NCBI RefSeq assembly: GCF_902832845.1
Contig: NZ_CADFDB010000003.1
Span: 124,001 to 188,000 of the forward strand
DNA length: 64,000 bases
From: Burkholderia metallica
GTDB taxonomy: Bacteria > Pseudomonadota > Gammaproteobacteria > Burkholderiales > Burkholderiaceae
Reading direction: 5' to 3'
Below are positions 6,940-22,977 of the stretch, piece after piece. Both the position numbers and the translations under genes were made by a program. The notes under the pieces were generated by a model. That model worked only from the letters and a program-made list of their open reading frames with translations, made no database searches and had not been told where the DNA came from. Positions within the stretch are counted from its first letter, which is position 1; each line of letters begins with the position of its first letter.

Positions 6940-7749
6940 CTACACCCCGCGAAACACCGGCGCGCGGCGCTCCGCAAACGCCCGCAGCCCTTCGTCGAAA
7001 TCCGCGCCGGCGCACGCGTGCCGGCGCAGCTCGGCGATCCGCTCGAACGCGTCGGCCGGCAACGGTCGCGCGTCCTGCAGCACGCGCAACTGCTCCTTCA
7101 CCGCATACACCGCGAGCGGCGCCTTCGCGGCGATCGTGCGTGCGACGTCGAGCGCCGCCTCGTCGACGCCGCCGGCTTCCGCCAGCCGGTTCACGAGCCC
7201 GTGATGCGCGGCGCGCTCCGCATCGAGCGGCTGCGCGCAGAAGAACATCTCCTTCAGCACGTGGATCGGCAGGTTGTCGTAGAAACGCAGCAATCCGCTC
7301 GTCGAATACGGCAGGCCGATGTTCGCCGGCGTCATCGCGAAACGCGCGTCGCGCGACGCGACCACCAGGTCGCAGCTCATCACGAGATCGACCGCCCCGC
7401 CCCACGCGGAACCCGACACCGCCGCGATCACCGCGCCCGGATAGGTCCGCACGCGGCGCAGCGCACGTTCGAGCGGCTTGCCATACGCGAGCGGATCGCG
7501 ATCGTCGGCCAGCTCACGCAGGTCGTGCCCGGCGCTCCACACGTCGCCGCTGCCGTCGTTCGACAGGATCACGACGGGCGGCGGACGGTGCGCGGCCAGC
7601 GTATCGAGTCGCGCGACGAGCGCATCGAGCAACGGTGCGTCGAGTGCATGCCGTCGCGCGGGATTCGCGAACCGCACGCGCGCGATCCGTTGGCCGATCA
7701 TGTCGACCGTGACGTTCGACGCTCGGTCGTGTTTTGTCGTATCGCTCAT
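6940..7749 (-). CDS. Methylmalonyl-CoA decarboxylase-like crotonase (ScpB-like)
   Basis: A 269-residue crotonase-fold enzyme that follows E. coli ScpB (methylmalonyl-CoA decarboxylase) closely: WSAGHDLREL, RDPLAYGKPL, SGSAWGGAVDLVMSCDL, MTPANIGLPYS, HVLKEMFFCA and KAPLAVYAVKEQLRVL. Residues matching the ScpB active site are His75 and Tyr148; a typical enoyl-CoA hydratase Glu pair is not seen. The likely reaction is decarboxylation of (R)- or (S)-methylmalonyl-CoA to propionyl-CoA, in the cytosol. Its start overlaps the end of the CaiB-type gene by 4 bp, so the two form an operon. The function is well supported by similarity, but the true acyl-CoA substrate here is unproven. Confidence 0.78.
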   Translation of the reverse strand: MSDTTKHDRASNVTVDMIGQRIARVRFANPARRHALDAPLLDALVARLDTLAAHRPPPVVILSNDGSGDVWSAGHDLRELADDRDPLAYGKPLERALRRVRTYPGAVIAAVSGSAWGGAVDLVMSCDLVVASRDARFAMTPANIGLPYSTSGLLRFYDNLPIHVLKEMFFCAQPLDAERAAHHGLVNRLAEAGGVDEAALDVARTIAAKAPLAVYAVKEQLRVLQDARPLPADAFERIAELRRHACAGADFDEGLRAFAERRAPVFRGV

Positions 7750-8969
7750 TGCGCGGCCTCCACCGGCGCTTCGGCCTGAAAGATCGTGCGCGCGGCCAGC
7801 AGCGCGTCGATCGCATCGTCGTCGTAGCCGGCTTCGCGCAGTACGTCGACCGTATGCTCGCCGAGCAGCGGCGGCGCATGGCGCGTGCGCGGCTCCGGCA
7901 GTTCGTCCCCCATCCCGCCGAGCGGCGTGACGACCTGCCGCAGCGTGCCGAGCGTCGGATGCGCAACCGGCTCGACCAGCCCGCAATGCGCGAGTTGCGG
8001 ATCGTCGAACACTTCGTCGAGCGTATTGATCGGCCCGGCCGGCAGCCCGGCGTCGACGAAACGCTGCGTCCATTCGCGCTTGCCGCGCGTGCGCAGCCGG
8101 CTTTCGAGCAACGCTTTCAGTTCGTCGCGGTGCGCGACGCGTGCATCGTTGGTCGCGAAACGCGGATCGTTCGGCAGCTCGGGCAGATCCAGCAGCTGGC
8201 ACAGCCGCAGCCACATGTCGGTCGTGATCGGCGCGAGATTGAGCGGCCCGTCGGCCGTCTCGAACACGCCGTACGGCGCGATCACCGCATGCGCATTGCC
8301 GGTGCGGCGCGGCACGTCGCCGAGGCTCAGGTAGCGCTGCCCGTGCACGCTCAACAGCGACACGAGGCTCTCGAGCAGCGACGTGCCGACATGCTGCCCG
8401 CGCCCCGTCCGCTCACGCTCGAACAGCGCGGCCGTCACGCCGGTCGCGACCCATATACCCGAGCTGAGATCGCCGATCGCCGTGCCCGTGCGAGTCGGCT
8501 CGCCGTCGGGGAAACCGGTGACGCTCATCAGCCCCGCATAGCCCTGCGCGATCTGGTCGAAGCCCGGCCAGTCGCGCAGCGGCCCGCGCGGGCCGAACGC
8601 GGTGACGCTGCCCATCACGAGCCGCGGATCGCGCGCACTCAGCGCCGCATAGCCGAGCCCCATCGCATCCATCGTGCCGGCTTTGAAATTCTCGATCACG
8701 ACGTCGGCCTGCGCGATCAGCCGGCGCACGACGTCGAGACCGGCCGGTTGCCGGAAATCCACGCAGATACCGCGCTTGTTGCGGTTGCAGGACAGGTAGT
8801 ACGTGCTCACGCCGCGATCGAACGGCCCCCATGCGCGGCTCATGTCGCCGTGCGGCCCCGACTCGACCTTGATCACGTCGGCGCCGAGATCGGCGAGCAC
8901 CATCGAGCAGAACGGCCCCGACAGCGCGCGACTCAGATCGACGACCCTGATTCCTTGTAATGCCTGCAT
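7746..8969 (-). CDS. CaiB/BaiF family (class III) CoA transferase
   Basis: A 407-residue class III CoA transferase. The N-terminus QGIRVVDLSRALSGPFCSMVLADLGADVIKVE is the family's opening (split here: QGIRVVDLSRALSGP then LADLGADVIKVE). The catalytic aspartate is Asp167 in GTAIGDLSSG, and the adjoining TGFPDGEPTR stretch matches formyl-CoA transferase-type enzymes. It moves CoA between a donor acyl-CoA and an acceptor acid. Operon partners are the ScpB-like decarboxylase downstream (4-bp overlap) and probably the MFS carrier upstream (61 bp), so the trio looks like uptake, CoA activation and decarboxylation of one dicarboxylic acid. The acid could be methylmalonate or a relative; that is inference. 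Confidence 0.88.
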   Translation of the reverse strand: MQALQGIRVVDLSRALSGPFCSMVLADLGADVIKVESGPHGDMSRAWGPFDRGVSTYYLSCNRNKRGICVDFRQPAGLDVVRRLIAQADVVIENFKAGTMDAMGLGYAALSARDPRLVMGSVTAFGPRGPLRDWPGFDQIAQGYAGLMSVTGFPDGEPTRTGTAIGDLSSGIWVATGVTAALFERERTGRGQHVGTSLLESLVSLLSVHGQRYLSLGDVPRRTGNAHAVIAPYGVFETADGPLNLAPITTDMWLRLCQLLDLPELPNDPRFATNDARVAHRDELKALLESRLRTRGKREWTQRFVDAGLPAGPINTLDEVFDDPQLAHCGLVEPVAHPTLGTLRQVVTPLGGMGDELPEPRTRHAPPLLGEHTVDVLREAGYDDDAIDALLAARTIFQAEAPVEAAQ

Positions 8970-13950: not shown

Positions 13951-15027
13951 TCAATTGTCCGGTTGCGGATCGGCATAATGCCAAATGACCATCCCCCACG
14001 CCGTGCGCTGCGGCCCCGGCATAGGCGCTCCGGCCTCGACATGAACCGAATCTTTCACAGCCGGGCTTTGCCAGTAACCGGTGCGCGGACAAGGCTCTCC
14101 GGGCAGCACCCGTAGCCTCGGTTGCGCGACGGGCGTGGGGAAGTAGGTTTCCTCCTCCGCTGGAATGCTGCCATCACGGTAGCGCTTGTCCTCCCACAGC
14201 AGCCGCCAGCGCACCACATGTTCGTCGTTCGTACCTTCTAACAGGTACTTGTGGGCAATACTGCCTTTGAGGAAGTAGCTCGGACAGCCCACCTTGCCGG
14301 ACGGAAACCACGGCTCCCAGATACCCTCGACAGGAATCTCCTGATCGCTGTAAATCTCACCGCTTGCGGATTCGTTCTTCGGCGGACAGGGAGGAAGCGA
14401 TGCGGGATAGGTGCGACCGGGTGGCCAATACCGCCATGCAGGCAGGGGCGCATTTTCAAACATGGATTCATAGGTCCAGTGCTCAAATACCCGGGTCCCG
14501 CCATCCGCACGTGTTCCGTATGCAAGCATCCCGGTATAACCGAATCCGACCGTGCACTTGAGCGCGTAGCAAATCAATCTCTCGATCCATACTCCCTCGG
14601 CGAACCCGGTGGCATACACCGGGTCCGAAAAGTTGGTGTCCTTCAGTCCCAGTGAATGAAAAAACGGATCGTATTTGCGACCGATTTCAAGCGCGCTCCG
14701 TCCAAACAACAGGTCGCCACCCTGCTGGCTTCCTATGACCAACGCGTCGTATGCTGCTCGTTTGTCAAGACCTCGGCGCAATGCGTCGATGCCCAGATCC
14801 ATGTGCACCAGGGCCCCCAAGAAATCGTGTGTGTAGGCTTCCTCAAGCTCCGCCTGATTTGGGCTCGGTGTGTCCAGTTGTTTGGCGTACGCGCCGAGAA
14901 AATCCCGATATAGTCCAACGGCGTATTCCAGGAACGTGAAACTCGTCCATTTCTTGAGCAGATAAAACGCCTTTGCTCGCGCATCCTGTTCCTGCTCGGG
15001 GGTCATGGTCAAAATATTCAACATCAT
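13951..15027 (-). CDS. T6SS immunity-like protein (Imm71/Imm72 type)
   Basis: A 358-residue soluble protein. The N-terminal half is helical (EQEQDARAKAFYLLKKWTSF and similar). The C-terminal half has the blocks SGEIYSDQEIPVEGIWEPW, ending in GEPCPRTGYWQSP and GPQRTAWGMVIWHY, a pattern I associate with polymorphic-toxin immunity families Imm71/Imm72 coded next to type VI secretion effectors. It would protect the cell from a cognate effector, probably by direct binding. The upstream neighbour is a vgrG fragment (38 bp away), which supports the type VI context. No intact effector lies beside it, so it is an orphan. The family name is given with moderate certainty. Confidence 0.55.
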   Translation of the reverse strand: MMLNILTMTPEQEQDARAKAFYLLKKWTSFTFLEYAVGLYRDFLGAYAKQLDTPSPNQAELEEAYTHDFLGALVHMDLGIDALRRGLDKRAAYDALVIGSQQGGDLLFGRSALEIGRKYDPFFHSLGLKDTNFSDPVYATGFAEGVWIERLICYALKCTVGFGYTGMLAYGTRADGGTRVFEHWTYESMFENAPLPAWRYWPPGRTYPASLPPCPPKNESASGEIYSDQEIPVEGIWEPWFPSGKVGCPSYFLKGSIAHKYLLEGTNDEHVVRWRLLWEDKRYRDGSIPAEEETYFPTPVAQPRLRVLPGEPCPRTGYWQSPAVKDSVHVEAGAPMPGPQRTAWGMVIWHYADPQPDN

Positions 15028-15064
15028 GGAACCTGTTCGTCCGTCGATTGTTTGCCGCTATCGG

Positions 15065-15397
15065 CTAGCGCTCTCCGCGCGTAACCTTCCTGTCTGATCT
15101 TGGCCGATCGCTCGCGCGCATCCACGACGCGACGACAAGTTGATAGCTGGAATGGCTACCGTCGCTGCCCAGCCTGCGCGCCGTATGGATATAACCGTTG
15201 ACTGGCAGATAAGACTTGTTCGCCTGCTGAATCCACAGCGTCATCGTTTGAGCGATCAATGTCTTGGGTTCGATATCGCCTGCCATGGATACAATGTCGA
15301 GCGTGACGCTGAAGTCGCGATCGAATTCGGAATAGATCACGGCCCGGCACGGCATGAGCGCATTGTCTGGCAGCGGCGGAATGTCTGCCTTGAGCAA
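15065..15397 (-). pseudogene. vgrG N-terminal fragment (T6SS spike)
   Basis: The reading frame matches the N-terminal gp27-like domain of VgrG: an early RAVIYSEFDRDFSVTLDIVS, then DIEPKTLIAQTMTLWIQ, NGYIHTARRLGSDG and YQLVVASWM. In full VgrG proteins this domain runs on for another 500 or more residues; here it stops at 110 residues, in the first beta-barrel segment, with no continuation in any frame before the immunity-like gene at 15027. It is therefore a truncated remnant that cannot form a spike. It marks the area as a former orphan vgrG-effector-immunity module. Confidence 0.7.
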
Positions 15398-15736: not shown

Positions 15737-15810
15737 AAGCACTGCCAGGGACGCCACCGCTCCAGCATCGAGCCATGCCAGTTTCGCTGCCACCGGCCAG
15801 AATCCTCCGC

Positions 15811-15840
15811 TTGCCATCCCCGCCCGACCCCCTGTAGAAT
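15811..15840 (+). promoter_or_regulatory. Retained tRNA-type promoter at the left junction
   Basis: TTGCCA at 15811-15816 and TAGAAT at 15835-15840, 18 bp apart, identical in elements and spacing to the promoter of the intact tRNA-Gly. It should still fire to the right into the truncated tRNA and the island, against the direction of the first island gene. Confidence 0.55.
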
Positions 15841-15850
15841 TACGCGTTCT

Positions 15851-15892
15851 GCGGGCGTCGTATAATGTGGCCATTACCTCAGCTTCCCAAGC
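15851..15892 (+). pseudogene. Truncated tRNA-Gly (5' part only)
   Basis: GCGGGCGTCGTATAATG, a 2-nt insertion, then the D-arm and anticodon arm as far as CTTCCCAAGC. The variable loop, T-arm and 3' acceptor strand are missing, so it cannot fold into a tRNA. The intact gene is at 22903-22977. Confidence 0.8.
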
Positions 15893-16055: not shown

Positions 16056-17156
16056 TTAGCTCTGCTCAAGCAACTCCTCGATGGAAGCTCCTTGAGTAGC
16101 CAATGCCCGCAAACGCACCGCTTGCTTCACGGTGTAGGAAATATGATGGTTCTGGTCGACCAGCACCCACGTCCCGGGGTTGCCTGTACCGGCGTGACCA
16201 GTCGCACACTCGTAGATGTATCGATCGCCGTAACTGAACGTGCGATCTTGATAGTAACTGCTTCCAACCACTGCAGCAGCGAGCCTCCGGTACTGCTCGT
16301 ACTTCTCACCTTGGCGAAGGCTATGTCCGCGATGAATGTGCAGCTTCGCACCATGCGTATAGCGGATTTTCCCGTTGATGTGGGTGCTCGGCGTCAGGTC
16401 GCTAAAATCGGGATGAATCACACCATAATCCCCGAAGACCATGTTTGCAGGTAGTCGCTGCGTCGCCACGTTGGCCCACAACGTTAGCTCCTGCCTTGCT
16501 ACTTCACCATGAGAGTTCCGCTCGATCTCGGCAACAGTCTTCGGAGAACTCGAGCCAGCAACGATGATGGCTCGTGCACTGACAAAGCGCGTTAGTGCAT
16601 CCACAAAGTCACAAGTATTCGCAGCAGCGGCAAGAGCGTCCGCTTCCGTCCCGAGGTATCGGTGATCTACCAACAAGTCGAGCATCCGAAGATCCAAACC
16701 CATAGCCCGCAATTCGAAGATTCGCTCTATGGTTTCATCGGGAAAATCCAAGTCATCTCGATCCAACCTCAGCAGCAGCCCTCCTTGCTGCTGAGCCCAT
16801 TGAACAACGGTGGACAGCTCTGCTTCGTCCCGATCAAAACCATACACCGGCTCGAAATTAACGCCAGCGTTTTTGAGTAAAGCGAAGCCCACCATAAGAG
16901 CGGATTCCCCTGTCTCGACCCGCGTGCCGGGCTTCAACATTGGGAAGTCTACGTAGCATTGCCGAGGACCAGACATCTTCGCCAAACGCTTCACAAATCG
17001 AGTCAACTCCTCTTCCGGCTTTTTCGTAGGCAGAAACGGAGGCAACTCGTACAGCGGTTTAGTCTGGCTGGCAAGGCTATGATCAACGTATGCCATAGCC
17101 TTGATGTCGTTAAGTTTTCCCTTGATGATCGGGCTATACACGAATCCTTGATTCAT
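16056..17156 (-). CDS. Beta-family protein (PF14350-like)
   Basis: A 366-residue soluble protein of the phage 'beta protein' family: YSPIIKGKLNDIKAM at the N-terminus, PLYELPPFLP, CYVDFPML, and a C-terminal part with GDYGVIHPDFSD, INGKIRYTH, GAKLHIHRGHSL and HISYTVKQAVRLRAL. The conserved histidines, aspartates and arginines suggest an enzyme-like TIM-barrel core, but no activity is established. It follows the HigA-ImmA/IrrE gene by 35 bp on the same strand, so it is third gene of a HigB-HigA operon, a linkage seen in other bacterial defence loci. The ATG at 17156 has GGAG 6 bp upstream; a TTG at 17168 is less likely. Confidence 0.75.
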   Translation of the reverse strand: MNQGFVYSPIIKGKLNDIKAMAYVDHSLASQTKPLYELPPFLPTKKPEEELTRFVKRLAKMSGPRQCYVDFPMLKPGTRVETGESALMVGFALLKNAGVNFEPVYGFDRDEAELSTVVQWAQQQGGLLLRLDRDDLDFPDETIERIFELRAMGLDLRMLDLLVDHRYLGTEADALAAAANTCDFVDALTRFVSARAIIVAGSSSPKTVAEIERNSHGEVARQELTLWANVATQRLPANMVFGDYGVIHPDFSDLTPSTHINGKIRYTHGAKLHIHRGHSLRQGEKYEQYRRLAAAVVGSSYYQDRTFSYGDRYIYECATGHAGTGNPGTWVLVDQNHHISYTVKQAVRLRALATQGASIEELLEQS

Positions 17157-17191
17157 TCTTAACTCCAATCAACGACACCAAGCCGAGATGT

Positions 17192-18415
17192 TTAACGGTT
17201 CATAAACAGCGGTTTAACAGCACCCTGGCCAATCATATCCTTGAAAATTGCGTAGTTCTCAGTTTCTCGCTGCAACCGGCCGGCAACGATAGCGGGATGT
17301 ATCCCTTGCTCTCGTGCGAAACTGACAATTCCTGTCTTTGTCGGCATTTGGCGAACCGAGGCACTACGCCAGTGTGCCCGCGAGATAAGCACATCTCTCG
17401 CAATGCGATTTGCCTCTTTCTCAATGGCCTCCGTGCTTTCGGCATCTACCAGACGATCCAGAATCACATCACCTGGCCGACTAAGGTGCTTCCAAATATG
17501 AGCACACTCGTGCAGAAGCGTAAACCAAAAGTTGTCCAACCGGTCGAAGCGGAGTGTCAGACCAATAACTGGTACACCAGACCCCGATAGCATGGCAGCA
17601 CCATCCAGTTTAGTCTTAGCCAAATGTTCCTCCACCACTACGGCAATACCTGCATCACGCAGATAATCAACCGCTCGCAAAGGTCCGTCTTCTAAAGGAC
17701 TGAATGACACCAGCTCCTTGAAAAAAGACTCGCTAAGCTTGTCGATATGGAAAGGCCCACGTGGGCAATAGGAGGGCTCCGCAGCCTTTTGCAACACACG
17801 GGCCTGCCATGCCGTCAAGGCGCAAATTGCCTCTGGCGCGAACGCATCGCCTTTGACCGTGCGTCGCGCTAAGACGCCCATACGCGCACCGCCCATTGCC
17901 TTCTCGACAAACGTCCGAGCAAGTTCGGCAGCTTTAGCAGAATCGATACGGCGCTGGTCGAATTGAATCCAGCCCCGCTTGATCATTTCCTTGACGGGGA
18001 ACAGCGACCAATCTACCTCTTCACTCCTCGCTTCTTCACTCGAAACAACAAGAGGCGTCTCCTGAACCAGAACCTCTGTGGGAATACCCAGCCCCGCGGA
18101 AAGCTGTCGAATCATGCCTACCGTCAGTGGGCGCTGCCTTGACAGAAACTCAGAGACACGGCTTCGCGAGCCGAAATATGGCACCAAATCAGCCTGTCGA
18201 AGTCCCTGCTCCATCATTCGGAATTTCACCGCCTCCACAGGATCTGGCTTCTCAAAGTGGTAGGTCCGGCGTTCGTAGTCTTCGACCAGCAAAGACAGCA
18301 ACTCCAACTCGCCCCCCTCCGGCGAGTCCGGAGTTGGGTCAAGCACAACGAGGTCCTCAATACGAGTCATGTACTCCCGGTATTGGGCCTCAGACTTAAC
18401 GACTGCTAGCTTCAT
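17192..18415 (-). CDS. HigA-type antitoxin fused to ImmA/IrrE metallopeptidase
   Basis: A 407-residue fusion. Residues 1-120 are a HigA-like antitoxin: an N-terminal YREYMTRIEDLV segment, then an Xre-type helix-turn-helix around GLRQADLVPYFGSRSRVSEFLS and PLTVGMIRQLSAGLGIP. Residues from about 240 to 350 form an ImmA/IrrE zinc peptidase with HECAH (302-306) and the third ligand region EKEAN (332-336). The antitoxin half should neutralise HigB and repress the operon; the peptidase half probably cleaves a regulator in response to a signal. Its start overlaps the end of the toxin gene by 20 bp, which fixes the ATG at 18415. The combination is unusual and may make antitoxin activity switchable. 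Confidence 0.8.
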   Translation of the reverse strand: MKLAVVKSEAQYREYMTRIEDLVVLDPTPDSPEGGELELLSLLVEDYERRTYHFEKPDPVEAVKFRMMEQGLRQADLVPYFGSRSRVSEFLSRQRPLTVGMIRQLSAGLGIPTEVLVQETPLVVSSEEARSEEVDWSLFPVKEMIKRGWIQFDQRRIDSAKAAELARTFVEKAMGGARMGVLARRTVKGDAFAPEAICALTAWQARVLQKAAEPSYCPRGPFHIDKLSESFFKELVSFSPLEDGPLRAVDYLRDAGIAVVVEEHLAKTKLDGAAMLSGSGVPVIGLTLRFDRLDNFWFTLLHECAHIWKHLSRPGDVILDRLVDAESTEAIEKEANRIARDVLISRAHWRSASVRQMPTKTGIVSFAREQGIHPAIVAGRLQRETENYAIFKDMIGQGAVKPLFMNR

Positions 18416-18710
18416 TTTGCCTGACTTCCCAATTGATCTTGCTGTATTCCGCGTGCGTTCCAATCCACGTTACAACCACGATTCCCATTCGGTACGCGAC
18501 ATTGCTCACCATTCGATAGTCGTTACCTTTCACGTTAAAAATAACTCGATTCCCTGCCAAGAAGCTTGCTGTCGGGTACCTGAACTTGATGTCGTGCGAG
18601 CTCAACCACTTCGCATCGCGAGCATCCGCCAACCACGCGTTAATCCACGCCCGAGCCGGGGGGTGCTTGGAAACGAAGCCATCTAGCTTGTCTAGTCCAT
18701 GTACCTTCAT
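18396..18710 (-). CDS. higB: HigB-type mRNA-interfering toxin
   Basis: A 104-residue toxin of the HigB_toxin family (RelE fold). Typical blocks are present: FVSKHPPARAWINAWLADA, AKWLSSHDIKFRYPTASFL, NRVIFNVKGNDYRMVSNVAY and WIGTHAEYSKI, the last containing the catalytic His/Tyr area. It would cleave mRNA at the ribosome. As usual for higBA, toxin precedes antitoxin, with a 20-bp overlap. The ATG at 18710 is chosen because it gives the canonical MKVHGLDKL start and lies 33 bp from the operator; a longer reading would run across the palindrome. Fully intact. Confidence 0.85.
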   Translation of the reverse strand: MKVHGLDKLDGFVSKHPPARAWINAWLADARDAKWLSSHDIKFRYPTASFLAGNRVIFNVKGNDYRMVSNVAYRMGIVVVTWIGTHAEYSKINWEVRQNEASSR

Positions 18711-18742
18711 CGTCAACCGAGACCTTATGCACTGCATCCACT

Positions 18743-18783
18743 GTATCACACCTTGTTCCCAAATTGGGAACAAGGTGTGATAC
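18743..18783. promoter_or_regulatory. Perfect 41-bp palindrome, higBA operator
   Basis: Left arm GTATCACACCTTGTTCCCAA (18743-18762), one central A, and an exactly complementary right arm to 18783. No mismatch in 20 bp. It lies 33 bp upstream of the higB start, between higB and the divergent TIR gene. A length and symmetry of this kind suit autorepression by the HigA-type helix-turn-helix, whose operators often contain TTCCCA-like half-sites. In RNA it would form a long stem, so an attenuator-like effect is possible too. Confidence 0.8.
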
Positions 18784-18899
18784 GCTTGCTCCATCGAGCT
18801 TGGCGTGGCCCTCATAAAAGGGGGGGCATCGCCACCCCGAAGCTATCGCTGCGCATTCGGCAGTCGATACGACGAGACTGAAAATGAAAGGATTACGAC

Positions 18900-19592
18900 A
18901 TGGCTAGATGCACAGCACCGGTACGCGGCCATCGCACTGCGAGCGCGGCAGCGGAATGTCCGGCATGTGGTAGTCGCTATAGCGGCTACCGGTCATACTC
19001 ATATTCTCCCCCGTCCTACTCCTCGCCGGGGTACAGCGGGGGTGGCCACAGTACTGCCAGTGGGTCCAGCAGCAGTGTGAGGCCGCGCTGGTCACGCGCA
19101 GGCTCGTCCGTGGTGTACACGCCTGCAGAAGTGCGGACACTCACGCCAGTCCGCGAAAACGTCGAGAAGCGAGCGTCCGTGCCCGATCTTCGAGACGTCT
19201 TTCTTTGCCACGCGTGGGACGACCGAAAAGGGGCTGCTAAAGATCTGCACGATATGCTTGAGTCGCGCGGTGTTTCGGTTTGGTTCAGCGAGAAAGACGT
19301 GGCGCTCGGCACGTCGCTGCTTCGCGAAATCGACAAGGGACTGGCGAAATCGCGAGTCGGGATCGTACTGGTCACTCCGGCGCTGCTCAGCCGCGTCCAA
19401 GGAGAAGGCATCGCCGACAAAGAGCTTTCGGCACTACTAGCACGGGACCTACTCGTTCCTATCGTGCATAACACGACTTACGAAGCTCTCCGCGAAGTTA
19501 GCCCGCTGCTCGGCTCGCGAAGCGGCCTGAGCACTGCTGAATCGTCGATGACAGAAGTCGCGATCAAGCTCGCCGAACTGCTCACCATCTAG
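18900..19592 (+). CDS. TIR-domain protein with N-terminal zinc-ribbon-like segment
   Basis: A 230-residue protein. Residues 1-25 hold C4, H11, C20 and C23 (CTAPVRGH...ECPACG), a probable small zinc-binding module. Residues 26-75 are a Ser/Tyr/Gly-rich linker. From about 97 to the end is a TIR domain: DVFLCHAWDDRKG (99-111), VSVWFSEKDVALGTSLL (125-141), IVLVTPALLS. The Glu143 in LREIDKGL is at the position expected of the catalytic glutamate of NAD-cleaving TIR domains. Bacterial TIRs often deplete NAD during phage defence. AAAGGA precedes the ATG. No cyclic-nucleotide or STAND sensor domain is fused. It is divergent from higB. Confidence 0.8.
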   Translation: MARCTAPVRGHRTASAAAECPACGSRYSGYRSYSYSPPSYSSPGYSGGGHSTASGSSSSVRPRWSRAGSSVVYTPAEVRTLTPVRENVEKRASVPDLRDVFLCHAWDDRKGAAKDLHDMLESRGVSVWFSEKDVALGTSLLREIDKGLAKSRVGIVLVTPALLSRVQGEGIADKELSALLARDLLVPIVHNTTYEALREVSPLLGSRSGLSTAESSMTEVAIKLAELLTI

Positions 19593-19738: not shown

Positions 19739-20149
19739 TCACTTCTTGCTCATGGGCTCGTGCTTGTCTTTGATCAGCTGATAGTAGGTGCTTGCACCGG
19801 CCTTCGTCAGTTTCACCTCGGCGATGAACTTGTCGATAATGTCCTTCCGAGTCACGTCCTTGACGGTCCGCATCCGCTTGTAGATTTCGGTCGCCAGTTC
19901 CATTTTCGTCGGCGCGGCCGCCGTCGCCTGTGCCGCCTTCGCTGCGGTATCGTTCCCCGTCGAGGTCGAGGCCGCGTCCTGCTTCTGGTCAGCAGCAGTC
20001 GGCTTGCCAGCTTTCTCGTCCTTGCCCATTGCACCTTGCTCCGCTCGTGAAAGCTTGCCGCCGCAATCTTCACACACAGCTGCAGCCAGATCGCAAATCT
20101 GGTCGATGGTCAGCAGCGGAAAATTGTTGGGGTGTCGAGTGTTGTCCAT
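19739..20149 (-). CDS. Small protein with C-terminal GASTYY-type domain, function unknown
   Basis: A 136-residue protein. Near the N-terminus are Cys26, Cys29 (CEDCGG), a possible half zinc site. The middle, about 40-80, is Ala/Thr/Lys-rich and probably disordered. The C-terminal 50 residues, MELATEIYKRMRTVKDVTRKD and EVKLTKAGASTYYQLIKDKH, form a helical domain that I have seen in many small proteobacterial proteins, likely a DNA- or protein-binding helix bundle. No function is established. The ATG at 20149 has AGGGA upstream at long spacing; starts further upstream lack a ribosome site. It is divergent from the cyclase operon and could regulate it. Confidence 0.6.
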   Translation of the reverse strand: MDNTRHPNNFPLLTIDQICDLAAAVCEDCGGKLSRAEQGAMGKDEKAGKPTAADQKQDAASTSTGNDTAAKAAQATAAAPTKMELATEIYKRMRTVKDVTRKDIIDKFIAEVKLTKAGASTYYQLIKDKHEPMSKK

Positions 20150-20280
20150 GCGATGACTATCCCTGAGCCCCATGAGAGAAACAACGGCTAGATCATTCAC
20201 TCTCGATCCAAACATAAAATCATCTGTGTCGGCGCGTACCTTCGGGCCGACCCACAACTAATAATAATTCTCACTTCTAC

Positions 20281-20320
20281 ATCACGCACAGGCCGCTTAC
20301 GCGGCTTGTGCTTCTGTGAT
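20281..20320. promoter_or_regulatory. Long inverted repeat in the 20149/20356 divergent spacer
   Basis: GCACAGGCCGC (20286-20296), TTAC, GCGGCTTGTGC (20301-20311) pair with one G-T step. The outer ATCAC (20281-20285) and GTGAT (20316-20320) extend the symmetry. It lies 36 bp before the start of the cyclase operon, in the spacer shared with the small divergent gene. It may be an operator or a stem-loop in the leader. Confidence 0.5.
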
Positions 20321-20355
20321 AACGTGCAAAAAAACGGGGATTAAAATAGCAACGT

Positions 20356-21198
20356 ATGACTCAGCCTAGCGAAGAAAAAGAAGTAAGCGCCCTCATCCGT
20401 GTTGAAGGCGGCACCGCAGACGAAGGCATCTTAGATTTGCACGACGGAGCTAAGACTATGCTCGGCATCGCTCGGGCAGTTAACATTGCTAGCCACGCGT
20501 TTGCCAACAACGATCAGATTCGCACCCGTGCCGACAGAGCTCATGGCGTTCAAGCGTTCGTCCACTCATCCCTCAAAGGTTGCTTTGAAGAGCGCATCGA
20601 CATTAGATTCAATGCGACAACAATCAAGCGAATCGGCCCCAGTAAGTTGGTCAATAGCTTTTGGGACTATCTAACTTGCTGCTGGTCTGCGGCGCTGGGA
20701 TTGTCGTACACACCAGAAACCGCATATGTCGAGGCCACTCTTAGTAGAGACCCTGATTTTATATATGAAATCGCTGATGCGTTAGAGTCGGCGATGAGAG
20801 AATTGCAACGCCCTATTGAATCAAACGACAGCGTAAGCATTACCTTGGCTCGTTTACGCAAAGGCGACCTACTCACAATGAATTGGCAAACGCGCGACTT
20901 CGTAACTGTTCGCGAAATAAAGTCCGACAAGCGAGTAATTCGAGGCAACATCACGAGATATAACGTTCTTAGTGATTTTGGCCGCCTCTATTCCGATGAA
21001 GACGGGAAAGTAATTTCCTTTGAAATAGCCAAAAGCTCCGGGAATAAAGTTAAGAAACTCGTAGTCAATTCCATGGAGAAACGCATAGACGGCCTGACCG
21101 GAAAGCTACAACTCAAGGTATCATCCATTGAAAGCGCACAAGGATTTGTAAAGCGATATGTAATCCATGACGCAACCCCGATCCAAGGCGATGACTAA
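20356..21198 (+). CDS. Protein of unknown function, first gene of the cyclase operon (DUF7946-like)
   Basis: A 280-residue soluble protein, no signal or membrane segment. The opening IRVEGGTADEGILDLHDGAKTMLGIARAVNI resembles a family recently named DUF7946 (cited here as GGTADEGILDLHDGA and AKTMLGIARAVNI). The C-terminal third is predicted to be beta-rich (FVTVREIKSDKRVIRGNITRY, FGRLYSDEDGKVISFEI). I do not recognise a catalytic motif. It has low-GC codon use unlike the backbone. Its stop overlaps the next gene's start, so it is the first of three co-translated genes with a membrane protein and a cyclase-like protein. A sensor or effector role is possible but not shown. Confidence 0.6.
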   Translation: MTQPSEEKEVSALIRVEGGTADEGILDLHDGAKTMLGIARAVNIASHAFANNDQIRTRADRAHGVQAFVHSSLKGCFEERIDIRFNATTIKRIGPSKLVNSFWDYLTCCWSAALGLSYTPETAYVEATLSRDPDFIYEIADALESAMRELQRPIESNDSVSITLARLRKGDLLTMNWQTRDFVTVREIKSDKRVIRGNITRYNVLSDFGRLYSDEDGKVISFEIAKSSGNKVKKLVVNSMEKRIDGLTGKLQLKVSSIESAQGFVKRYVIHDATPIQGDD

Positions 21199-21760
21199 CA
21201 CCCCAAGCTTGTTTTGTGTATTGCACACATCAAGCTGCATGCTGATGTCGGAGTGGGGTGTCTATTGGCAAGCCCTTGGAACGTTCGCCGCAGTAATCTT
21301 CGGCGCATTCGGACTCTATAAAATTCGCGCGGAACTCAAACGTCTTAATGAACAACGAGAGAAAGAGATTACAGACAGAGATGCGGCCGCAAAATTAAAA
21401 AGAACAGAATTTTTCTTAAATCAGCACCGCCGACTTTTTGACAATCCAGAGCTATACGCCGTACTGTGCTTGGTCGACTCTGACAATGAGGCTCTAGCAA
21501 ATACCGACATGTGGGATCGGAAGAGGAAATTTATTACATTTTTCGAAGAAATTCAAATCCTCATCGACAGCGGTCAACTGGACAAGCAAGTTGCCCTCTA
21601 TATGTTTGGCCATTACGCTAGATGCGCCATGTACGGCAGCAATTTTCAAGTGGGCATAGCCATGACCGAAGCGTATTGGCGTCTGTTTTTTCGTTTTGTG
21701 CGAGACGCTGACGATTTTTTTGAAAAAAATCCGAATGGTCCAGAATCGGTCTCTCTTTGA
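21191..21760 (+). CDS. Single-pass membrane protein in the cyclase operon
   Basis: A protein of 189 residues from the ATG at 21191, which lies inside the last codons of the previous gene (8-bp overlap, coupled translation). One membrane helix is visible, in YWQALGTFAAVIFGAFGLYK, followed by a charged helix that may form a coiled coil (IRAELKRLNEQREKEITDRD) and a helical cytosolic part with EFFLNQHRRLFDNPELYAVL. The layout suits a membrane effector held in check in the cytosol. I see no recognised cyclic-nucleotide-binding fold, so a direct equation with PycTM is not supported. An alternative start is 21239. Confidence 0.6.
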   Translation: MTNTPSLFCVLHTSSCMLMSEWGVYWQALGTFAAVIFGAFGLYKIRAELKRLNEQREKEITDRDAAAKLKRTEFFLNQHRRLFDNPELYAVLCLVDSDNEALANTDMWDRKRKFITFFEEIQILIDSGQLDKQVALYMFGHYARCAMYGSNFQVGIAMTEAYWRLFFRFVRDADDFFEKNPNGPESVSL

Positions 21761-21816
21761 CCCCATAAGGTGAGCCTCCCTCAATATGCTGCCGTACGGA
21801 CATCTAGGAGGAGCGC

Positions 21817-22719
21817 ATGCGAAGTTTTCAGGGAGCAGTGCTATTCGTTGATATGCTAGGCTTCAGTGCGCTTACCAGAGGCACGCTTAGCCTTGGCATA
21901 GATGAGTGCAAGCCGTGGAAGGTTGACCCACATGGCAATTTCCCGCACCAGCTACTTGCCGCAAAGATTTTATTGGCGTTTCGCAGTGTGCTGGTGAAGA
22001 CGAAAGATAAATTTCCCGACGTAAGGGTGGCGCAATTGTCAGACTGCGCATTTCTCTGGTCGGCTAACGTAGGAGTGGTGGGAGATGCCGGACGCCATCT
22101 GATGCACGAAGCCGCACTGAAGGGGCTTCTGTGCCGCGGAGGATTCTCCATTGGAGACATTCACGAACCAGAAAAAGTGAATCGCTCCCTAGGGGCGTTT
22201 ATCGTTGGCGATGCAGTGACTCGAGCAGCAACCTACGAGACAGCAGGCAAAGGCATGCGCATTTTCACCGACCAAGAAGCCGCTCGCAGATTGTTGACGA
22301 TACGACCTAATGAAGTATTTCACCAACTCATAAACCCATTGACGGGCGAGATTGTTGACGAATGGCAGTGGTACGCGCCAAGCCAATCAATGTGCGCGCA
22401 GCAAGACAAAGCTGGATTACGACAGAAGATAGATCGCTTGGTCGGTTGCTATGCGACGCTTCGATATTCACCAAAGCTAGCCTGGAGTGCAACGACACCC
22501 GAAGGGCGTCGCCAGATAGCCTGTTCTGTTGTTACGTTGTCCGAGGCGATTGATAAACTGAATGGAAACAGCGGTAGATACCAGCTATCCATCGAACACC
22601 TGTTGCCTGGCTTGGACGACGGAAGACGCTCCGACCGTGCTTGTAAGCAAATCCGAGAGCAGTTCGTGAGCGAACTGACAACACCAAACCTGCCCATTCC
22701 ACGGAGCAGAGAAAGATGA
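21817..22719 (+). CDS. Class III nucleotide-cyclase-like protein (Pycsar PycC-like candidate)
   Basis: A 300-residue protein with the outline of a class III nucleotidyl cyclase: GAVLFVDMLGFSAL at 6-19 (first metal Asp12), VAQLSDCAFLW at 71-81 (second metal Asp76), CRGGFSIGDIH at 106-116 and GDAVTRAATYE at 131-141. In ordinary adenylate cyclases the last block reads GxxVNxAxRxE; here the transition-state Asn and Arg positions are Thr135 and Thr139, a marked change. Standalone cyclases of this type, coded beside an effector gene, make cCMP or cUMP in the Pycsar anti-phage systems. A perfect AGGAGG precedes the ATG. It is third in the operon, 56 bp after the membrane protein gene, and is low in GC. 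Confidence 0.7.
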   Translation: MRSFQGAVLFVDMLGFSALTRGTLSLGIDECKPWKVDPHGNFPHQLLAAKILLAFRSVLVKTKDKFPDVRVAQLSDCAFLWSANVGVVGDAGRHLMHEAALKGLLCRGGFSIGDIHEPEKVNRSLGAFIVGDAVTRAATYETAGKGMRIFTDQEAARRLLTIRPNEVFHQLINPLTGEIVDEWQWYAPSQSMCAQQDKAGLRQKIDRLVGCYATLRYSPKLAWSATTPEGRRQIACSVVTLSEAIDKLNGNSGRYQLSIEHLLPGLDDGRRSDRACKQIREQFVSELTTPNLPIPRSRER

Positions 22720-22785: not shown

Positions 22786-22941
22786 GCTCACGACTGCCAG
22801 CGATGCCACCGCGCCGCCAGTGAGCCATGCCAGTTTCGCTGCCACCGCCCTAAACCGCGCGCTTGCCATCTCCACGCCAAACCCTGTAGAATTACGCGTT
22901 CTGCGGGCGTCGTATAATGGCCATTACCTCAGCTTCCCAAG
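22786..22941 (+). repeat. Right island repeat: promoter and 5' half of tRNA-Gly
   Basis: The counterpart of 15737-15892. Shared stretches include GAGCCATGCCAGTTTCGCTG and CCTGTAGAATTACGCGTTCT, and the last 20 bp before the end, CATTACCTCAGCTTCCCAAG, are identical. The outer 90 bp are noticeably diverged, as expected if one copy came from another strain with the element. The probable exchange point is the anticodon arm. Confidence 0.8.
22863..22892 (+). promoter_or_regulatory. tRNA-Gly promoter
   Basis: TTGCCA at 22863-22868 and TAGAAT at 22887-22892, spaced 18 bp, with the tRNA beginning 11 bp after the -10 box. Confidence 0.65.
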
Positions 22942-22977
22942 CTGATGACGTGGGTTCGATTCCCATCGCCCGCTCCA
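22903..22977 (+). tRNA. tRNA-Gly (anticodon CCC)
   Basis: 75 nt including encoded CCA. Acceptor strands GCGGGCG (22903-22909) and CGCCCGC (22967-22973) pair fully, with U as discriminator. The anticodon loop CTTCCCAAG gives CCC, and the T-arm is GTGGGTTCGATTCCCAT. It is intact and forms the right border of the island; a truncated copy is at 15851-15892. Confidence 0.97.

Follow-up and report, generated by a model that had tools for sequence, protein, structure and literature searches.

A two-gene soluble/membrane protein cassette and a separate cyclase-fold gene in a tRNA-Gly island

In RexAB, as described in PMC12894663, RexA is the infection sensor and RexB the membrane effector that it activates; the same source gives RexBpp, of the RexABpp system of Pseudomonas putida, four predicted transmembrane (TM) segments. 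For the Pycsar cyclases EaPycC and AnPycC, the account in PMC11224242 places an Asp pair 44 residues apart by their numbering, with a Phe two positions ahead of the first of the pair. We compare with these systems three adjacent genes, here called g1, g2 and g3, in a 64,000-nt stretch of a 7.55 Mb genome (G000:C3:124001–188000; 'the window'). All three open reading frames (ORFs) are present as first described, and they had been read in the initial annotation as a single three-gene cyclic-nucleotide operon. The g1–g2 pair and g3 are separable, and a plausible but wrong operon is replaced here by two testable units.

A tRNA-Gly island with variable cargo

Across 13–23 kb of the window the GC content drops from ∼0.70 to 0.47–0.60. 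A direct repeat of ∼150 nt (15741–15892 and 22793–22942) combines the DNA upstream of a tRNA-Gly(CCC) gene with the tRNA's 5′ half, and both copies end just 3′ of the anticodon. The 7.05 kb inside the repeat holds a PD-Lambda-2-like operon, a TIR gene, a short minus-strand gene, g1, g2 and g3 (Table 1). To the left of the island, on the minus strand, 13951–15397 codes for an Imm71/Imm72 immunity-type protein and a VgrG-like fragment, which are perhaps leftovers of type VI secretion cargo.

Table 1. Features of the tRNA-Gly island, in window coordinates.
Feature	Position	Strand	Remarks
Left repeat copy, truncated tRNA-Gly	15741..15892	+	Upstream DNA and 5′ half; island boundary
PD-Lambda-2-like operon	16056..18815	-	HigB-type toxin 18396-18815; HTH/M78 protein 17192-18463; Beta protein 16056-17168
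TIR-domain protein	18900..19592	+	PADLOC ThsB model, full length, E 1.5e-124
Short gene	19739..20257	-	Ala/Lys/Thr-rich middle; partly recurrent at hotspot sites
g1–g2 cassette, extent	20140..21761	+	86.8% DNA similarity, same tRNA-Gly site in G666 (L054)
g1, DUF7946/DUF7947 protein	20356..21198	+	280 aa, soluble; profiles; proposed sensor or regulator
g2, DUF4760-like protein	21191..21760	+	One N-terminal TM segment and cytosolic domain; proposed membrane effector
g3, class III cyclase-fold protein	21817..22719	+	Fold in residues 1-189; C-terminal extension of ∼110 residues; separate cassette
Right repeat copy with entire tRNA-Gly(CCC)	22793..22977	+	tRNA gene 22903-22977

DNA flanking the tRNA gene was present in all 65 genomes of the genus, that of the window included. 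Nine sites (L054–L062), picked because they looked interrupted, were fetched. At seven of them (L054, L056–L061) a truncated repeat copy bounds the cargo as it does in the window; L062 has the upstream part of the repeat only, and at L055 the interruption lies 3′ of the tRNA. The cargo varies among the nine sites and often includes defence genes. When 20 cargo ORFs, picked by hand, were scanned against PADLOC-DB, 11 had matches at 1e-5, spread over six of the nine sites; the other nine ORFs, and three of the sites, gave none at this threshold. The matches comprise bSEFIR and a reverse transcriptase (L054), type II restriction-modification (L056), a type II methyltransferase (L061), retron-type reverse transcriptases (L057 and L058), RmrA (L058) and a weak candidate match (L060). 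In genome G666 another gene occupies the place of g3 (L054, 6251–7078), a weak PADLOC candidate for PDC-S31 (2.8e-6). DNA comparison also found part of the short gene of Table 1 at four of the nine sites, as ∼300 nt at 81–90% identity in L058, L059 and L060 and as 120 nt in L062; this gene may have to do with maintenance of the element itself. A place in a defence hotspot is not in itself proof of a defence role.

The cyclase-fold gene

The description of g3 as a class III cyclase-like protein with Asp12 and Asp76 as its metal pair held up. Its predicted structure, weak overall (pLDDT 53), adopts a class III cyclase fold in which strand 1 ends at Asp12 and the turn between strands 2 and 3 carries Asp76. 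The two are placed as a metal pair, and alignment shows both residues kept in all five relatives that cover them. The C-terminal extension is mostly at pLDDT 34–46 and contains no known domain. No Pfam cyclase family matched g3 and no PADLOC family did so at E 1; viral scans and a phage-record search with g3 gave nothing useful.

Among the 65 genomes of the genus, g3 was found in its own alone. That it stands by itself in a defence island, as originally noted, agrees with the surroundings of its relatives: the DNA around seven of them contained neither g1 nor g2. At the three of these seven loci whose neighbours were scanned by PADLOC, using ORFs chosen as defence-looking, GajA/GajB of Gabija (L010), a type II restriction-modification system with MkoC (L011) and DrmA/B/C of DISARM (L012, Citrobacter gillenii) lie nearby. 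Near the g3 relative on a Citrobacter plasmid (L003, 10363–10965 and 9079–9978, both on the minus strand) a protein whose N-terminus has a single hydrophobic stretch was noticed by eye; it is coded on the other strand from the g3 relative and has no detected similarity to g2, and a role for it as effector is possible but unsupported.

These neighbourhoods bear on whether g3 alone makes up a complete defence system, in which the cyclase domain would be joined to an effector or sensor extension. The seven relatives, every one of them apart from g1 and g2, the length of sequence past the cyclase domain and the known defence proteins at the three scanned loci are all consistent with such an arrangement, but the low confidence of the extension and its lack of a known domain argue against it, and we regard it as possible though rather unlikely.

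Class III cyclases have a transition-state Asn and Arg motif. At the aligned positions g3 has Thr135 and Thr139, and in its enterobacterial relatives the second (Arg) position is Arg in L003, L010 and L011 and Lys in L012. The two threonines, together with the lack of a Pfam cyclase match, could mean that the fold is kept but is catalytically dead, or serves another chemistry such as nucleotide sensing. This is opposed by the retention of both metal Asp residues in the five covering relatives and by the Arg that three of the four enterobacterial rows carry, with Lys in the fourth; we consider a dead or diverted cyclase unlikely.

The g1–g2 pair

The g1 protein of the window matches DUF7946 (PF25678) with 47.6 bits (E 2.6e-12; curated cut-off 27), DUF7947 (PF25679) with 26.9 bits against a cut-off of 27, where a relative in L028 reaches 73.6 bits, and PHROG 13337 with E 1.5e-55. 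By profile g1 is a member of DUF7946 and PHROG 13337, families of unknown function, and falls just short of DUF7947. A literature search with the two DUF names, the PHROG and three protein accessions returned no paper. When 12 g1 and partner proteins were given to PADLOC-DB there was no good match, the one at E 1 being window g1 with PDC-M02B (0.021). Structure prediction, which had borne out the cyclase fold and a plausible metal site for g3, was no help for g1, whose model (mean pLDDT 36) is too poor for fold comparison. No relation of g1 to solved proteins was found by sequence or profile; sequence searches of solved structures with g1, g2 and g3 gave best E values of 0.64, 1.1, 0.02, 0.19 and 0.14, all to unrelated proteins, and one search had no match. 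A phage-record search with g1 and viral scans with the L007, L037 and L028 proteins gave nothing useful.

The reading frames of g1 and g2 overlap, with the start of g2 at the ATG at 21191 (21167 is also possible). The TM segment of g2 is weak, with a hydropathy of 1.5 against the script threshold of 1.6. Window g2 does not match DUF4760 (PF15956), and three of five aligned members do so at E 1, one of them above the curated cut-off. A search for g2 among plasmids and viral scans with g2 gave nothing useful, and a literature search on DUF4760 gave nothing related.

DUF7946 was found in only three of 299 genomes of a phylum sample; these include the window's own genome, and one of them scores below the cut-off. 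Carriers of g1 include E. coli chromosomes, IncX and small plasmids, plasmids of Acinetobacter, Plesiomonas and Photobacterium, a Klebsiella phage and a Vibrio phage of Vinavirales; in two more phages g1 lies next to an integrase gene and has no partner. The E. coli chromosomal pair is present in 82 of 5,426 complete genomes at 99% or more. On an IncX plasmid carrying the pair (L038), SLATT-domain and HEPN-domain genes lie within ∼4 kb according to the record annotation (247–921 and 7017–7750).

Twenty g1 loci were surveyed, and in 15 the end of g1 and the start of a membrane-protein ORF lie no more than 30 nt apart (the script counts 14; the fifteenth is window g2, just below the hydropathy threshold). 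This survey is not a random sample because it took in nine of 26 counted records; L054 and L064 were found later and stand outside the count. The partners are DUF4760-like proteins with one TM segment (window, L023, L024, L025 and L031), related proteins of 242–259 aa with two N-terminal TM segments (L007, L033 and L037–L041; in L033 four segments pass), a 285 aa protein with two TM segments (L028), and proteins of 80 and 83 aa (L030 and L034, respectively). They are not all independent, as the partners in L037, a small Klebsiella plasmid, and L038 are near-identical (88%) and those of L030 and L034 are related. No downstream membrane gene was found in the remaining five loci: L026 has one upstream of g1, and L005, L006, L035 and L036 have none. 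The partner groups share no detected similarity while g1 stays. Such exchange around a constant g1 is what would be expected of a sensor with exchangeable effectors, and it would also fit a chaperone or antidote role.

If g1 were an antidote and g2 a membrane toxin, the two would form a toxin–antitoxin pair serving plasmid or island stability, a reading in keeping with their tight coupling and with the small and conjugative plasmids among the carriers. The four loci in which g1 lacks any membrane gene (L005, L006, L035 and L036) argue against this, as does the size of g1, since the usual antitoxin is smaller, and we think it doubtful. To the same degree we doubt that g1–g2 is a superinfection-exclusion or surface-modification moron acting without a cell-death step; phages and prophages do carry g1, in some cases close to genes for integrase or lysis (L030, L034, L035 and L036) and in two without a partner (L035 and L036), but plasmids carry g1 as well, as do islands in which intracellular defence systems lie alongside.

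Within the genus g1 was found in four of the 65 genomes (G000, G666, G011 and G668), and a g2 relative directly follows it in G666, G011 and G668 (read from translation in G668). In G666 the DNA similarity to the window covers g1, g2 and ∼200 nt upstream, stops one base past the g2 stop and returns only at the tRNA repeat, with a different gene after g2. Between the two genomes the proteins are 94% (g1) and 91% (g2) identical, and dN/dS is 0.064 for g1 and 0.024 for g2, for which the synonymous distance is near saturation; both genes have few amino-acid changes against many silent ones. Counted by locus, six besides the window (L023, L024, L025, L031, L054 and L064, the last read from translation) have a g2 relative immediately after g1. 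Outside the genus the pair was found in G178, in G147 and in a viral contig (L031), with no g3 in the DNA fetched. G131 (L026) has g1 without g2, and G056 (L027) has a weak g2 relative (32% over 106 residues) without g1. In L031 the pair adjoins matches to the PADLOC LmuA/LmuB models. Beside the pair in G178 (L024, 5276–7236) a Beta-family-like protein and a RES-domain-like protein were recognized by eye, and the former had no PADLOC match at 0.001.

It is highly improbable that the three genes are one system in which the g3 cyclase signals via a ligand-binding g1 to a membrane effector g2: a shared strand, the g1/g2 overlap, a gap of just 56 nt from g2 to g3 that contains a good ribosome-binding site, and the cyclase fold of g3 favour it, but g3 is unmatched in the g1–g2 carriers G011, G666 and G668, being absent from the very site at which G666 keeps the pair, the similarity of the cassette DNA stops at the g2 stop, and neither g1 nor g2 was found in the DNA around the seven g3 relatives. 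The check for co-occurrence did not find the three genes together outside the window; therefore, g1, which recurs without g3, is not the additional sensor or ligand-binding partner of a cyclase system that had been suggested, nor is g2 the cyclase's effector. Judged by gene distribution, one conserved three-gene unit is refuted.

Two cassettes compared with Pycsar and RexAB

On balance, we think it somewhat more likely than not that the locus combines two independent tRNA-Gly-hotspot cassettes, a RexAB-like g1–g2 module and a separate stand-alone defence cyclase, g3. The former would be a mobile two-gene module of soluble g1 and single-pass membrane g2, in which g1 most likely senses infection and then triggers g2 at the inner membrane; g2 would perturb the membrane such that the infected cell is stopped, as in RexAB-type abortive infection. 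For its part, g3 probably makes a cyclic mononucleotide upon infection, and this product would act through a receptor encoded elsewhere than beside g3. More tentatively, DUF7946/DUF7947 could be the common sensor of a broad, undescribed two-gene anti-phage system with swapped membrane effectors (DUF4760-like with one TM segment, two-TM of ∼245 aa, and others), spread over hotspots in chromosomes, over IncX plasmids, small plasmids and phages; in addition there would be a separate family of stand-alone class III defence cyclases without a neighbouring effector.

In the g1–g2 pair a soluble and a membrane protein are joined in an undescribed combination, found repeatedly on chromosomes, plasmids and phages. 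If it defends, a function would be gained for two Pfam domains of unknown function, and for gene pairs on IncX plasmids and in the E. coli genomes counted above (82/5,426). A stand-alone defence cyclase, if true, raises the question of where its receptor is located.

The initial annotation had likened the locus to Pycsar. Shared features are the class III cyclase fold of g3, its Asp metal pair and its setting in a defence island, and Phe10 lies two residues before Asp12, as described for AnPycC and EaPycC. In contrast, the Asp spacing of g3 is 64, against the 44 given for those two proteins; g3 has a C-terminal extension and no PADLOC match, and in the window no recognised cyclic-nucleotide effector lies alongside it. 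As had been said of the membrane protein, g2 has no recognisable cyclic-nucleotide-binding domain; a profile search found none in g1, g2 or the TIR protein. The TIR protein was rejected as a Pycsar effector, as no cyclic-nucleotide domain was found in it and it matches the CAP12/Pycsar TIR model only at E 0.014. No match to the PycTM family was found in the window's own genome (G000). The cyclase of L043, which lies beside a PycTM-type gene (a PycTM match below the curated cut-off), finds solved BcPycC (7R65) by sequence, whereas g3 does not. When the g3 family was aligned by hhalign with two cyclases that neighbour PycTM-type genes, the probability was 0.1; the profile holds just two sequences and one of them is the L043 cyclase, so that this result carries little weight in either direction. 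PycC chains, 7R65 for example, were not among the 50 matches listed for the g3 fold, which excludes nothing. A Pycsar assignment is not supported: with no effector recognised beside it, no PADLOC match and no PycTM-family match in its genome, g3 is not filed as Pycsar. By analogy, it may act as the cyclase component does in Pycsar.

With RexAB-type systems (lambda RexA/RexB and RexABpp) the likeness of g1–g2 is of the works-like kind. Membership cannot be claimed because no sequence relation of g1 to solved proteins was found and its model is poor; a 20-member g1 profile run against solved chains listed no RexA at E 10. The systems differ in the number of TM segments, which is one in g2 and two in the E. 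coli-type partner, against the four predicted for RexBpp in the published description, and in that g1 has no detectable relation to solved proteins. In both, as far as RexAB is described in that source, a gene for a soluble protein adjoins one for a membrane protein, and some g1–g2-type copies lie in prophages. By this analogy, RexAB is the best works-like model for g1–g2.
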